Below are positions 1 through 61,297 of a stretch of 61,297 nucleotides of DNA, piece after piece (within the stretch, counting starts at the first letter, position 1; the number at the start of each line of letters is the position of its first letter). This stretch comes from a virus. The stretch is taken from IMG/VR virus record IMGVR_UViG_3300028802_000015, positions 1-61,297 of that record; one strand, given 5' to 3'. The translations under genes were made by a program, and so were the position numbers. The notes under the pieces are model-generated. The model saw nothing but the letters and a program-made list of their open reading frames with translations, was not told the DNA's origin and did no database searches.

Positions 1-26
1 TCGGCGGCTACGTCGAGAACTGGTGA
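1..26 (+). CDS. 3' end of secreted protein gene (continues from window end)
   Basis: Bases 3-26 read GGYVENW then TGA. Bases 1-8 are identical to the last 8 bases of the window. Merging them places these codons in frame with the signal-peptide gene that starts at 60815, giving a 166-residue protein. The TGA overlaps the next ATG as TGATG, the normal coupling in this genome. Confidence 0.6.
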
Positions 27-16383: not shown

Positions 16384-16396
16384 TTTAGTGACTAAA
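16384..16396 (+). repeat. TTTAGTNACTAAA site 15 (centre G)
   Basis: Lies directly after the nuclease stop. GAGGAGCAGCC follows and the ATG is 15 bp away. Confidence 0.92.
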
Positions 16397-30504: not shown

Positions 30505-30517
30505 TTTAGTGACTAAA
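30505..30517 (-). repeat. TTTAGTNACTAAA site 19 (plus-strand centre G)
   Basis: Lies 15 bp before the collagen-fibre ATG. GAGGAGG lies between. Confidence 0.92.
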
Positions 30518-49267: not shown

Positions 49268-49280
49268 TTTAGTGACTAAA
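49268..49280 (-). repeat. TTTAGTNACTAAA site 24 (plus-strand centre G)
   Basis: Overlaps the terminase stop region and lies 15 bp before the membrane-protein ATG. Confidence 0.92.
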
Positions 49281-50697
49281 CGGCGCGCAGGTGTCGCCCG
49301 TCGGCGACCCTCTCACGGAGCAGGGTCGTCGGGTTGGCGATCGCTGCGGGCATGACCTGCTTGGCGAGTTCCGTGACGGCGTGCACCAGGGCGTCCAGCC
49401 GGTTCGGGGAGTCCATGTTGCTGCCCGGCACCCAGGTGGTCAGTTCGTCCTCCAAGGTCGCCAGGTCGCCCCGGCGGCCCACGTGGAACACCCGCTGCTT
49501 CTCGTACAGCGCGACCACCGGCTCCGCGCGGATCGCCTTGCCGCGGCGGGAGTTGACCGGGATGATCCGCGCACCTTTGTGGCCGGAGGACTCCAAGGTG
49601 TGCTTGACCATCTCGCCGCCGTAGTTCTTCTCCGGCACGATCGCGTCAGCGGAGAGGTCCTCGTACTCGGCGTTGGCCCGGCTCGCCCACCCGGCGGGGG
49701 TGTAGCGGTCGGACACGTCGGAGAGCACGTAGAGGTTCTTGTCCACGCCGATCCCGACGGCGACGATCCCGGTCTCGTCGTTGGCGGGCTTGTGCCCACC
49801 GGCGGGGTCCACGCCGATGACGATGCGGATCAACTGCGGGACGGCTTCGGGCTCGATCCACTGGAACATGTCCCAGGTCCACAGCGCGCCCTCCACGTCC
49901 TCCAACACCTCGCCGTGGAGTTCCTGCTTGCCCAGGCGGGTGCCTTCGTAGCGGTCGAGGATGACGGCCTTGAAGGTGTCCGCGAGGTTGGCGAGGTTGG
50001 CGTAGGTCGAGGCCCGGTGGGTGACGGTGAGCGGGTCGGCGATCAGTGCCTTGAGCCACTTGATCGGCTTAGGTGTGGAGGTCGCCACGATCTTCGGGTT
50101 ACGGCCCATCCGCAGCCCGAACAGGGCGTTGTCCCACACGTCCTTGATGAGCGGGAAGTGGGCGGGCTCGTCGGCCCAGACGAACCCGGTCTGCGGCCCG
50201 CGGAGCCGGTCGGGTTCCTCGGCGGAGAACCCTTGGCCGATGCAGCCGTTGGGCCAGGTGAGCCGCTTCTTGCTGGGCTCCCACTCGGGGCGCTTGCCGG
50301 GCGGGCTGGTCGCCAGGATGCCGGACACGCCTTCGATCATGGTGTCGCGCAGGTCGGGTCCGGTGGCGGCGATGAGCGCGACGCGCGGGGTGACCTTGGT
50401 GACCCGGTGGGTGACCTCCGCGCCGGTCCGGGTCTTGCCGGACCCGCGGCCACCGGACAGCAGCCAGGTCAGCCAGTTGTCGTTCCACCTGGGCGGGCGC
50501 TGGTCGAGGCGGGCGTGCTCCCACTCCCAGCCCTCGTGCGGGCGTCCGTCGCAGGTGAGGATCGGGCAGTAGAACGGACGCCACGCAAGCGTGTGCTCCC
50601 GTTCCCTCAGGAGTTCGAGAGCACGCGCCTGCGCTTCGGGCTTCCACTGTCGGTAGGCGTCCAGCGCTGACACGTCGCCTTGTGCTTCATCACGCAT
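49276..50697 (-). CDS. terL: large terminase subunit, 473 aa
   Basis: Walker A GGRGSGKT (82-89), Walker B at FVWADEP, coupling STPKP, then the RNase-H-like nuclease IGVDPAGG with later acidic residues. The N-terminus contains CPILTCDGRPHEGWEWEHAR, an unusual Cys insert. ATG 50697 removes an implausible Arg-rich extension to 50775. A small zinc-ribbon gene overlaps its start. Confidence 0.93.
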   Translation of the reverse strand: MRDEAQGDVSALDAYRQWKPEAQARALELLREREHTLAWRPFYCPILTCDGRPHEGWEWEHARLDQRPPRWNDNWLTWLLSGGRGSGKTRTGAEVTHRVTKVTPRVALIAATGPDLRDTMIEGVSGILATSPPGKRPEWEPSKKRLTWPNGCIGQGFSAEEPDRLRGPQTGFVWADEPAHFPLIKDVWDNALFGLRMGRNPKIVATSTPKPIKWLKALIADPLTVTHRASTYANLANLADTFKAVILDRYEGTRLGKQELHGEVLEDVEGALWTWDMFQWIEPEAVPQLIRIVIGVDPAGGHKPANDETGIVAVGIGVDKNLYVLSDVSDRYTPAGWASRANAEYEDLSADAIVPEKNYGGEMVKHTLESSGHKGARIIPVNSRRGKAIRAEPVVALYEKQRVFHVGRRGDLATLEDELTTWVPGSNMDSPNRLDALVHAVTELAKQVMPAAIANPTTLLRERVADGRHLRAV

Positions 50698-50801
50698 GGG
50701 ATGCACCACAGGGTGCGGTGCAGCCGGGTCGCCCGCTGGCCCACGGTGAACACGCGACCGCAGCCGCCTGCGCATCGCGCGGTGTACCGGACCTTGACCA
50801 T
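50607..50801 (-). CDS. zinc-ribbon mini-protein, 64 aa
   Basis: ATG at 50801. Residues CAGGCGRVFTVGQR and CIPC form a ribbon. It overlaps the terminase start by 91 bp in another frame. Common near actinophage terminases. Confidence 0.6.
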   Translation of the reverse strand: MVKVRYTARCAGGCGRVFTVGQRATRLHRTLWCIPCVMKHKATCQRWTPTDSGSPKRRRVLSNS

Positions 50802-55880: not shown

Positions 55881-55962
55881 CAGGCTCCTCCGGTGTGACG
55901 ATCGCCAGCAGCAGCGCGACCGCGAGCGCCGCACCCATCGGCTTCTTCCTGGTGTAGGGCAT
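55801..55962 (-). CDS. possible membrane peptide overlapping the previous gene, 53 aa
   Basis: ATG in a TGATG overlap with the fibre gene. One span (MGAALAVALLLAIVTP), then an acidic tail read over the neighbouring gene for 80 bp. Could be real or a frame artefact. Confidence 0.4.
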   Translation of the reverse strand: MPYTRKKPMGAALAVALLLAIVTPEEPDGDHGDSDPDPGDGAERGAGVRDGVQ

Positions 55963-57650
55963 CAGGGTGCGGTGATGCACAGGGTCCGGATGACCACGAC
56001 GCCGGGCGCTCCGTCGCCGCCCTTGCCGGACGCGAAGGTGTTGCGGGACGCCGCTCCTCCTCCGCCGCCCGCGCCGTACTTGGCTCCGTCGCCACCCTTG
56101 GCTCCGGTGGCGTTGGTGGTTGCGGTCCCGCCGCCGCCGCCGTTGCCTCCCAGGTAGGCGAGTGGGTTGCTGGCGTTGCCGTTGGCCCCGCCGCTGGTGG
56201 AGGCCAGGGCCCGGGGCTGGTCGAGGGCTGCGCCGGTGACCCCGCCGGAGCCCCCAGCGAGCGCGCTGTTGCCCGCGGTGATGGACCCGCCGCCTGCCCC
56301 GCCGCCGGGCGCGGCGTTGCTGTCGGTGCCGTTTGCTGCGGTGGCGCTGATGGACCCGGCCCCGCCCGCGGCCCCTCCGTAGCCTCCGGCACCGCCGAAG
56401 CCGCCTGCCCCGGCACCACCGGCGGCTGAGCCGGTGCCTGCCCCGCCACCGCCACCGGCCCCGACGCGCATGAGTCGGGCGGTGGAGGTGGCCTGGTCCG
56501 CGGTCAGTGACGCGCCGAACGAGCACGCGCCGCCAGGGTTCCCGGCCTGCCCGACGGTGTTGTCGGTGCCGATCGCCGGGCCACCTGCCCCGCCGCCCGC
56601 GACGACGACGGTCTCGCTGGTGTCGAGGGCGTCCGCGCCGAACCACCAGTGGCCGTAAGCGCCGCCTCCTCCGCCGCCGCCACCACCGGCGACCGAGGAG
56701 GTCGCGGTGCGGGCACCGGACCCGCCTCCGCCTCCTCCGGCGACCATGATGACCTCGGCCAGGACGGCACCGGCGGGCTTGTTCCAGGTGAACGTCTGGG
56801 TGACGAGCGGGTTGCTGGGCTGGAACACCTGCACGTCCACGGTGACCAGCGAGCCGCCTGCTCCGGCTGCGCCGGTGAGGCCCTGGATGCCTTGCGGGCC
56901 TTGGTCGCCGGTGTCGCCCTTGTCACCCTTGGGTCCTTGCAGCCCTTGCTGGCCTTGAGCGCCTTGGGGACCTTCGGGACCTGTGGCCCCGGGGGTTCCG
57001 GGTGTTCCGGCGGAACCGGCGGGTCCTTGGGCTCCGGTGTCGCCGGTGTCGCCCTTGGGACCCTGGGGTCCGGTCGCTCCGCTCGGTCCTTCCGCTCCGT
57101 CCTGTCCGGCGGGTCCGGGTGCGCCTCCCTGACCGGTCGGGCCCTGGGTTCCCGTTGCGCCTGTGGGTCCGGCCGGTCCCATTTCGCCGCGGGGGCCTTC
57201 GACTCCGGGGTCCCCGGGGTCACCCTTCTCCCCGGGGGTCCCGGCTGGCCCGGTGTCACCGGGGTCACCCTTGTCGCCTTTGGTTCCGGTGGTGCCGCGG
57301 TCGCCTTTGGGGCCGCGCAGGGTGAGGATGCCGGGGGTGATCTCGACGGGTGCTTCGTTGGGCAGGTCGATGGTTGCCCCGGCGGGGGCGTGGAACGCGA
57401 ACCGCCTGCCGCCCTTGACGGTTTCCCGCACCATCCAGGTCCACCCGGTCGGGGACAGCGCGGGGTCGTCGGTGGCTTGGAGTTGGACGGTGAACGACCC
57501 GTCTTCGTCCAGCGGGACCCGGATGCGGCGGGGCACGACCACCGCGTCGGGGTCCTCGCGGGTCAGCAGCGGTGGGATGAACGTGAGGTAGCCCTTGGCG
57601 GGTGACCCGTCGAGTTCGGTGTAGCGGCCGGTGACGGTGGCGGTGGTCAT
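55962..57650 (-). CDS. collagen-like and glycine-rich fibre protein, 562 aa
   Basis: Residues 1-110 form a beta domain ([20 protein letters not shown]). Residues 111-275 hold over 50 Gly-X-Y triplets. From 278 a Gly-rich domain ([20 protein letters not shown], then Gly runs) resembles the N-terminus of the 1013-aa tail protein. It lies far from the tail genes, next to regulators. Confidence 0.8.
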
Positions 57651-58962: not shown

Positions 58963-59167
58963 CGCCGGGGTCCGTAACCTCACCTGACCCACTTGCCTTC
59001 ATCTGGTCCAGAGCCGAGTGAGCCATGATCAGATTCCGCACCATAACCCCACGTGACACACCCCCGAACCGCCTCCGTACCGTATCCAAAACCCGGGCTT
59101 CGGCCACCGACAACCGCACCGTCAACACCACCGGCCTGCCCCCAGCCGTACTCAACGGCCTCCCCAT
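58958..59167 (-). CDS. ribbon-helix-helix regulator, 69 aa
   Basis: GRPVVLTVRLSVAEARVLDTV, then FGGVSRGVMVRNLIMAHSAL matches a strand-helix-helix fold. First gene of the leftward block. ATG 59167, GTG 59173 possible. Upstream are two GTATACG repeats. A prime candidate for controlling the late block. Confidence 0.8.
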   Translation of the reverse strand: MGRPLSTAGGRPVVLTVRLSVAEARVLDTVRRRFGGVSRGVMVRNLIMAHSALDQMKASGSGEVTDPGV

Positions 59168-59208
59168 AACCACACCTGCCCTACCTCGACGGACCTCACC
59201 GCACCCTA

Positions 59209-59263
59209 CCGTATACGGAACTCAGCGGAGCATAACCCCAGGTCAGGGCGGTATACGAAACTC
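59209..59263 (-). promoter_or_regulatory. paired GTATACGRAACTC repeats
   Basis: Copies at 59211-59223 and 59251-59263 differ at one base and are 40 bp apart, about four helical turns. The first sits in CCGTATACGG. Placed upstream of the first leftward gene, likely operator sites of its product. Confidence 0.65.
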
Positions 59264-59357
59264 TGCCCCAATGCCAGACACCCAACCGACCGGCTAGCGC
59301 TCCCTCCGGGGCCGCGGGCCGGGGACCGGGGGTGCCGGGGGTGTGATGCGTCTCACG

Positions 59358-59387: not shown

Positions 59388-59417
59388 GTTGACACAGCGG
59401 GTCAACCCGTGAGAGAG
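59388..59417 (+). promoter_or_regulatory. promoter with GTTGAC-N7-GTCAAC operator
   Basis: TTGACA at 59389-59394, 17 bp, weak -10 AGAGAG (59412-59417). Inverted repeat at 59388-59406, preceded by GTCAAGTTGAC. It drives the first rightward gene. The weak -10 suggests an activator. Confidence 0.6.
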
Positions 59418-59448
59418 TGCTCTCAGTGGCCGAGAGAGACTCGGTCAC
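59413..59448 (+). other. leader hairpins of the first early transcript
   Basis: GAGAG/CTCTC (59413-59424), then 59426-59434 pairs with 59440-59448 (9 bp, one G-T). As at 5184 and 60711, the promoter is followed at once by stem-loops. Confidence 0.45.
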
Positions 59449-59486
59449 ACGGACAGGGGCTAGGGCCCCGGAGAGCAAGGTTCGAG

Positions 59487-60188
59487 ATGACTGAGTACGT
59501 CAAGATCACGGATGACAAGGCGGCTGTTGCGCTGGTCACGCGGGTGGCCCGGACCTACCGTTCGGCGCAGGGTAAGGTGCGTTCGCTGACCGCGGATGCC
59601 GCCTACGCGACCGAGGCTGCGTTCTCGGCGGGCATCATCGCCAAGGGCGCAAAGTACGACACGGCCCGTGAGTACGCCGCAGCGTTCGACGTGGCCCCGG
59701 CGACCGTGACCCTCTGGAAGCGTCTCGGTCGCGCGCTGGTCGTCGGCGTGACCACTGACTCCCCGCTGTGGCAGACGCTCGCGTTCCGCACCGCAGCGAA
59801 CGACAAGGCGGTCGCGGAAGCGATCATGGCCGACGACGCGACGGTCGCCAAGATCGCCGCGGCTGTGGCGACCACCCGGAAGCCGGACGGGTCGCGCGCG
59901 ACCAAGGTCGGCGGGAACGACGGCAAGCCGAACGACGGCACGGACGCTCCCGCGACCGACCCGCTCGCGGGCATCACCGACCCGACCGAGCAGGCGATGA
60001 TCTTGGTCGGTCTGTTGAAGCGCGTGGTCGCGGACACGGACCGCGACGGGTGGGCGAAGGTCGAGTCCGCGCTGGGCGAGATCATCACCCGCGAGAACAC
60101 GGTCCGGGCGAAGGCGGCGAAGGTCGCCGCGGACAAGGCGGCGAAGGCGGCGAAGGTCGCGGCCCCGGCCGACAAGATCGCCTCCTAG
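59487..60188 (+). CDS. putative helix-turn-helix early protein with basic tail, 233 aa
   Basis: ATG after GCAAGG. Residues 55-85 read as a helix-turn-helix (YDTAREYAAAFDVAPATVTL, then WKRLGRAL). The last 30 residues are Lys/Ala repeats (KAAKVAADKAAKAAKVA). First gene of the rightward block and followed by two hairpins, so a separate early transcript. Possible repressor or nucleoid protein. Confidence 0.68.
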   Translation: MTEYVKITDDKAAVALVTRVARTYRSAQGKVRSLTADAAYATEAAFSAGIIAKGAKYDTAREYAAAFDVAPATVTLWKRLGRALVVGVTTDSPLWQTLAFRTAANDKAVAEAIMADDATVAKIAAAVATTRKPDGSRATKVGGNDGKPNDGTDAPATDPLAGITDPTEQAMILVGLLKRVVADTDRDGWAKVESALGEIITRENTVRAKAAKVAADKAAKAAKVAAPADKIAS

Positions 60189-60776: not shown

Positions 60777-60789
60777 TTTAGTAACTAAA
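60777..60789 (+). repeat. TTTAGTNACTAAA site 31 (centre A)
   Basis: Lies in the leader of the secreted-protein transcript, 26 bp before its ATG. Confidence 0.92.
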
Positions 60790-60814: not shown

Positions 60815-61297
60815 ATGCGCATGACACGACGCGGCATGATCGTCGCCGCACTCACCGGCTGCCTACTCGGCCTGCCCATCGGGCACGTCACCGCCAACGC
60901 CGCACCCCTCCCCACCCAGCACCCGGGCTACCACCCGTGCCCGGTGGAGGACGCCCCCGGCCCCTGCTGGTGGGACGCCGGGTCATCCGGCAACGGGCAG
61001 GGTCAGTCGTTCTACGTGACCCGCGATCAGCGCGTGGTCTACGGTCACCTGCACTGGCGGGTCATCGCCAACCGGCACACCGCCACGCTGCCCGACGCGC
61101 ACCCGTGCCGTCAGGACCGCGGGTCCTACGGTGACCCGACCACCTGCCTCACCGTCGGCCCGTGGCACCGGGTCAGCCAGCCGCTCGCCGACGCGCTGGC
61201 CGAGGGGTCGTCACCCCACGCCACCACCCGCGACTGGGAGGGTCGTTGCTTCACTCACCGCAACGGACCCGAACGGCTCATCGCGTGCGTCGGCGGC
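60815..61297 (+). CDS. secreted protein, 161 codons in window (166 aa if joined to base 1)
   Basis: CTTGGAGGCTCAAC gives a good start. The signal peptide MRMTRRGMIVAALTGCLLGL runs to about residue 30 (ANAA). ALTGC could also be a lipobox. The mature part has several Cys (HPCPVED, PCWWDAG, HPCRQD, TTCLTV, RCFTH, IACV), suggesting disulfides. Expressed from the strong early promoter. A secreted early protein may alter the cell surface. Reading frame continues at the window start. Confidence 0.75.
   Translation, partial: MRMTRRGMIVAALTGCLLGLPIGHVTANAAPLPTQHPGYHPCPVEDAPGPCWWDAGSSGNGQGQSFYVTRDQRVVYGHLHWRVIANRHTATLPDAHPCRQDRGSYGDPTTCLTVGPWHRVSQPLADALAEGSSPHATTRDWEGRCFTHRNGPERLIACVGG

Follow-up and report, generated by a model that had tools for sequence, protein, structure and literature searches.

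The named terminases nearest to that of the virus considered here come from Arthrobacter phages of cluster AP and their kin, from Curtobacterium phage Kithara, and from Microbacterium phages of cluster EG and their kin. Ten of these phages, with terminases 40-52% identical to the one at hand, were compared end to end; all ten carry an exact direct terminal repeat, 202 to 953 bp in length (Tank 589, Hyperion 203, MellowYellow 587, BruhMoment 953, AWGoat 833, SilentRX 838, Kithara 337, Marcie 202, Fransoyer 209 and Ranunculus 900 bp). The repeats published for Tank (589 bp) and Hyperion (203 bp) agree with the computed ones (PMC5513430, PMC7302621). In every one of them the outermost right-hand gene points inward (leftward) and encodes 231-288 residues, and 158-430 bp separate its start from the right end of the genome.

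The DNA analysed here (the window) is the whole of virus record IMGVR_UViG_3300028802_000015, 61,297 bases. The terminase tree places the window, together with related uncultivated viruses, in a 27-row group that also contains the three named lineages and the ten phages just listed; the support of 99/97 belongs to that group as a whole, and the tree does not settle the order among the lineages. By this tree, the terminase is of the same lineage as those of the EG- and AP-type phages with direct terminal repeats. The window's own clade comprises 11 rows, none of them a cultured phage with mapped ends.

Cluster EG (Hyperion, OneinaGillian, Marcie) resembles the window in several ways: genomes of about 62 kb; terminases 40-47% identical; two divergent operons with the ends (in the window, the predicted ends) between them, and a HIT-family gene near that end; and short inverted repeats upstream of genes. 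It differs in having a mapped terminal repeat of 202-203 bp, in an end-adjacent first gene that is not detectably related, and in the sequence of the inverted repeat, GATCAACCNNGGTTGATC as opposed to TTTAGTNACTAAA in the window. Tank (Arthrobacter cluster AP) and the phages related to it (BruhMoment, AWGoat, SilentRX, MellowYellow, Ranunculus) share a terminase about 47-52% identical, and late and opposite operons laid out alike around the ends, which in the window are predicted ones; their genomes, however, are larger (65-70 kb), and their terminal repeats measure 587-953 bp.

Closure of the record

The first-pass annotation had observed that the window begins and ends with the same eight bases, TCGGCGGC. 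A scan of overlap lengths up to 200 bases, exact and near-match, bears this out: it is the sole exact overlap between the ends, and the scan found no longer near-match and no inverted terminal repeats. Two cut positions drawn at random from this sequence agree over eight bases with a probability of 7.6e-5. To call a genome closed, CheckV needs its ends to repeat over 20 bp or more (PMC8116208); the overlap here is only 8 bp, so the record is missed as closed under that rule. The threshold is a rule of detection, not a biological requirement.

Table 1. Coordinates, strand and supporting evidence of features in the 61,297-base window
Feature	Position	Strand	Basis
Left copy of the 8-bp end overlap	1..8	.	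sequence, overlap scan
3' part of split gene after collapse, TACGTCGAGAACTGG (YVENW) + TGA	9..26	+	join, tails of relatives
Downstream gene, 86 aa	265..525	+	homologue follows split gene on one contig in two relatives
Next small gene, 63 aa	522..712	+	also downstream in IMGVR_UViG_3300025924_000067
Next gene, 131 aa	1075..1470	+	also downstream in both relatives
Terminase large subunit	49276..50775	-	groups with terminases from direct-repeat phages
Predicted physical virion terminus (outer edge of putative collapsed direct repeat)	58979..59329	.	inferred from gene order
First gene of rightward operon, 259 aa (233 aa from ATG 59487)	59409..60188	+	position matches end-proximal gene of direct-repeat phages
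5' part of split gene, 161 codons, signal-peptide-like start	60815..61297	+	homologue of Streptomyces phage Itza gp74
Right copy of the 8-bp end overlap	61290..61297	.	sequence, overlap scan

An ORF starting at 60815 leaves the right end of the window after 161 codons; collapsing the eight bases adds YVENW and a TGA, as had been proposed, and yields a 166-aa product with the C-terminus ...CVGGYVENW-stop. When overlaps of 0 to 8 bases (nine in all) were tried, only 2, 5 and 8 reached the TGA at 24-26; relative to the 8-base collapse, an overlap of 2 inserts two extra codons and an overlap of 5 inserts one, and only 8 gives the tail length of the relatives. This TGA does overlap the ATG at 26-28, as claimed; the 52-aa ORF that follows (26-184) has no convincing relative, so the overlap of stop and start counts for little as evidence of the join. 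It is the sequences of relatives that carry the argument.

Two kinds of relative are informative. The first consists of two IMG/VR contigs, IMGVR_UViG_3300028802_000053 and IMGVR_UViG_3300025924_000067, which were found through their terminases (76-77% identical). Unlike the window they are partial (25.5 and 35.1 kb), but in both the homologue of the split gene is unbroken, and downstream of it, on one strand and in the order seen in the window, come homologues of 265-525 and 1075-1470. The second kind is represented by Streptomyces phages of the Arquatrovirinae (Itza, VieEnRose, Nerdos), in which the homologue has different gene neighbours and sits several kb inside the genome; no terminase match to the window was found in Itza. 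Counted from the last cysteine to the stop, each of the six sequences examined has nine residues: CVGGYVENW in the window, CPRGYVELF and CPDGYAELF in the uncultivated relatives, and C..GF.ETS in the Streptomyces phages (CRSGFFETS or CFDGFRETS). The alignment runs across the join without a gap; the Itza and VieEnRose homologues match through residue 161 and then continue for exactly five residues before the stop. Because this spacing holds in six of six, and overlaps of 2 or 5 would add codons, the eight-base join is correct to the nucleotide, with nothing apparently missing between the ends.

A protein scan for close relatives with the split gene as sole query confirmed none (those described came by way of the terminase), and its 28-residue tail, searched alone, gave only a chance hit. 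Neither end region has a DNA-level match among named phages. The exact junction pattern had no match in IMG/VR, so no near-identical record has been shown there. OR148984.1 (Caudovirus D_HF2_7), a circular phage record from human saliva, contains a relative of the N-terminal half of the split gene, with 35% identity over 82 residues.

The ends of the window thus adjoin, the split gene is restored, and two relatives are continuous at this place; the earlier suggestion that the genome is complete is confirmed, at 61,289 bp with the overlap counted once, closed by assembly. The cut is an arbitrary point inside a gene, where the assembly was opened. Four full-length close relatives (58.9-62.4 kb) are closed assemblies too, with end overlaps of 78-123 bp and cut sites at unrelated places relative to the terminase; the window differs from them only in its very short end overlap. 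Such closure is ordinary but useful, and the junction itself holds no new biology. It provides a complete genome, one that the 20-bp end-repeat rule would miss, for this record and for a clade of uncultivated 60-kb actinophage-like viruses; checking for homologous genes that run across contig ends could recover further complete genomes with very short overlaps.

A predicted virion end near 59 kb

A closed assembly need not mean a circular or permuted molecule in the virion. Short-read assembly turns a short direct terminal repeat into a circle. The account we favour, and hold to be probable, is that an uncultivated actinobacteriophage-like virus is represented here by its complete genome, closed by assembly and opened arbitrarily within a gene, which would leave the 8-bp overlap; and that its virion DNA would be linear and carry at its ends a fixed direct repeat of a few hundred bp. 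The repeat would sit where the leftward late operon and the rightward operon diverge, with its outer edge at about 59.0-59.3 kb, and would extend rightward from there, perhaps for 0.2-1 kb. Reads of the two identical copies would merge into one and produce a circular assembly graph; a collapsed terminal repeat would then explain the closure without circular permutation.

We infer the repeat, its place and its length from terminase kinship and gene order. Between 58.9 and 59.5 kb the window has the layout seen at the right ends of the ten named phages: the gene at 59409-60188 is separated by a divergent region from the leftward late genes, although the match is one of position only. Its product is 70% identical to its counterpart in IMGVR_UViG_3300028802_000053. 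It has no detectable sequence relation to the end-proximal counterparts in the ten named phages, so the argument for a virion end here is made from position; a test for homology to Tank gp105 and Hyperion gp104 was negative. A search of 57.5-59.5 kb for repeats that might mark a terminal repeat gave nothing decisive, as expected if the repeat has collapsed. On this comparison the true end most likely lies near 58.98-59.33 kb, roughly 2 kb away from where the contig was cut, which gives the real virion ends a testable place.

A second reading accepts the closed genome and supposes headful packaging, so that virion DNA is circularly permuted and terminally redundant, with no fixed end. It would yield an identical circular assembly, it occurs in some other actinophage clusters, and the unrelated cut sites of the closed relatives suit it; arbitrary cuts, however, are equally produced by a collapsed repeat, and every one of the ten named phages closest in terminase has fixed direct repeats. 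We regard it as unlikely. It is likewise rather improbable that the window's clade of 11 uncultivated terminases switched its packaging mode, for example to headful, from a short-direct-repeat ancestor. The first-pass description of the genome as 'circular or circularly permuted' is not borne out in that form: the assembly is the same either way, and for the virion the description is probably wrong, given the ten direct-repeat phages and the gene order.

A third reading takes the contig ends as real cohesive ends, an 8-nt 5' overhang having been filled in during library preparation. A GC-rich 8-bp end repeat is how a filled 5' overhang might be expected to look. The cohesive ends that two surveys report for phages of Arthrobacter and Microbacterium are 3' overhangs (PMC5513430, PMC7302621); end repair trims such overhangs and does not fill them. 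Moreover, a cohesive end should be a fixed site, non-coding or near the terminase, and not continuous in relatives; here the site is coding, in a conserved gene at a distance of about 10 kb from the terminase; two relatives are unbroken there, the Streptomyces phages carry the gene well inside the genome, and the nearest terminases are associated with direct repeats. The first pass had called a cohesive end within a gene the less likely option; very unlikely would now be fairer.

The gapless alignment of proteins across the join all but refutes the idea that the 8-bp match, short as it is, arose by chance and that the contig is a fragment lacking sequence between its ends. That reading is scarcely credible; against it also stand the low probability of the match alone, the relatives' exact tail length with the next genes in order, and a total length equal to that of the closed relatives.

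Palindromes and a collagen-like protein

The window contains 31 exact copies of the palindrome TTTAGTNACTAAA, from 199 to 60777, a number with close to no likelihood of arising by chance; examples lie at 199-211, 1004-1016, 16384-16396, 30505-30517 and 60777-60789. A plausible start codon follows each copy at a distance of 7-76 nt, and the centre base, read in the direction of the gene, is mostly C. Among the relatives searched, two have 7 and 8 copies and the others none. The placing resembles that of the 18-bp repeats of cluster EG phages, although the sequence differs; TTTAGTNACTAAA itself was not found in the phage literature. At 185-225 and about 990-1030 the palindromes lie within longer GC-rich hairpins whose outer arms differ in sequence (CCGCGCCG...CGGCGCGG and CCCGCCCCGC...GCGGGGCGGG) yet still pair, which suggests a role as RNA hairpin or terminator at some of the sites.

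Upstream of the terminase and apart from the other tail genes, 55962-57650 encodes a collagen-like tail protein. Its 562 aa include long Gly-X-Y repeats, and the C-terminus is rich in glycine.
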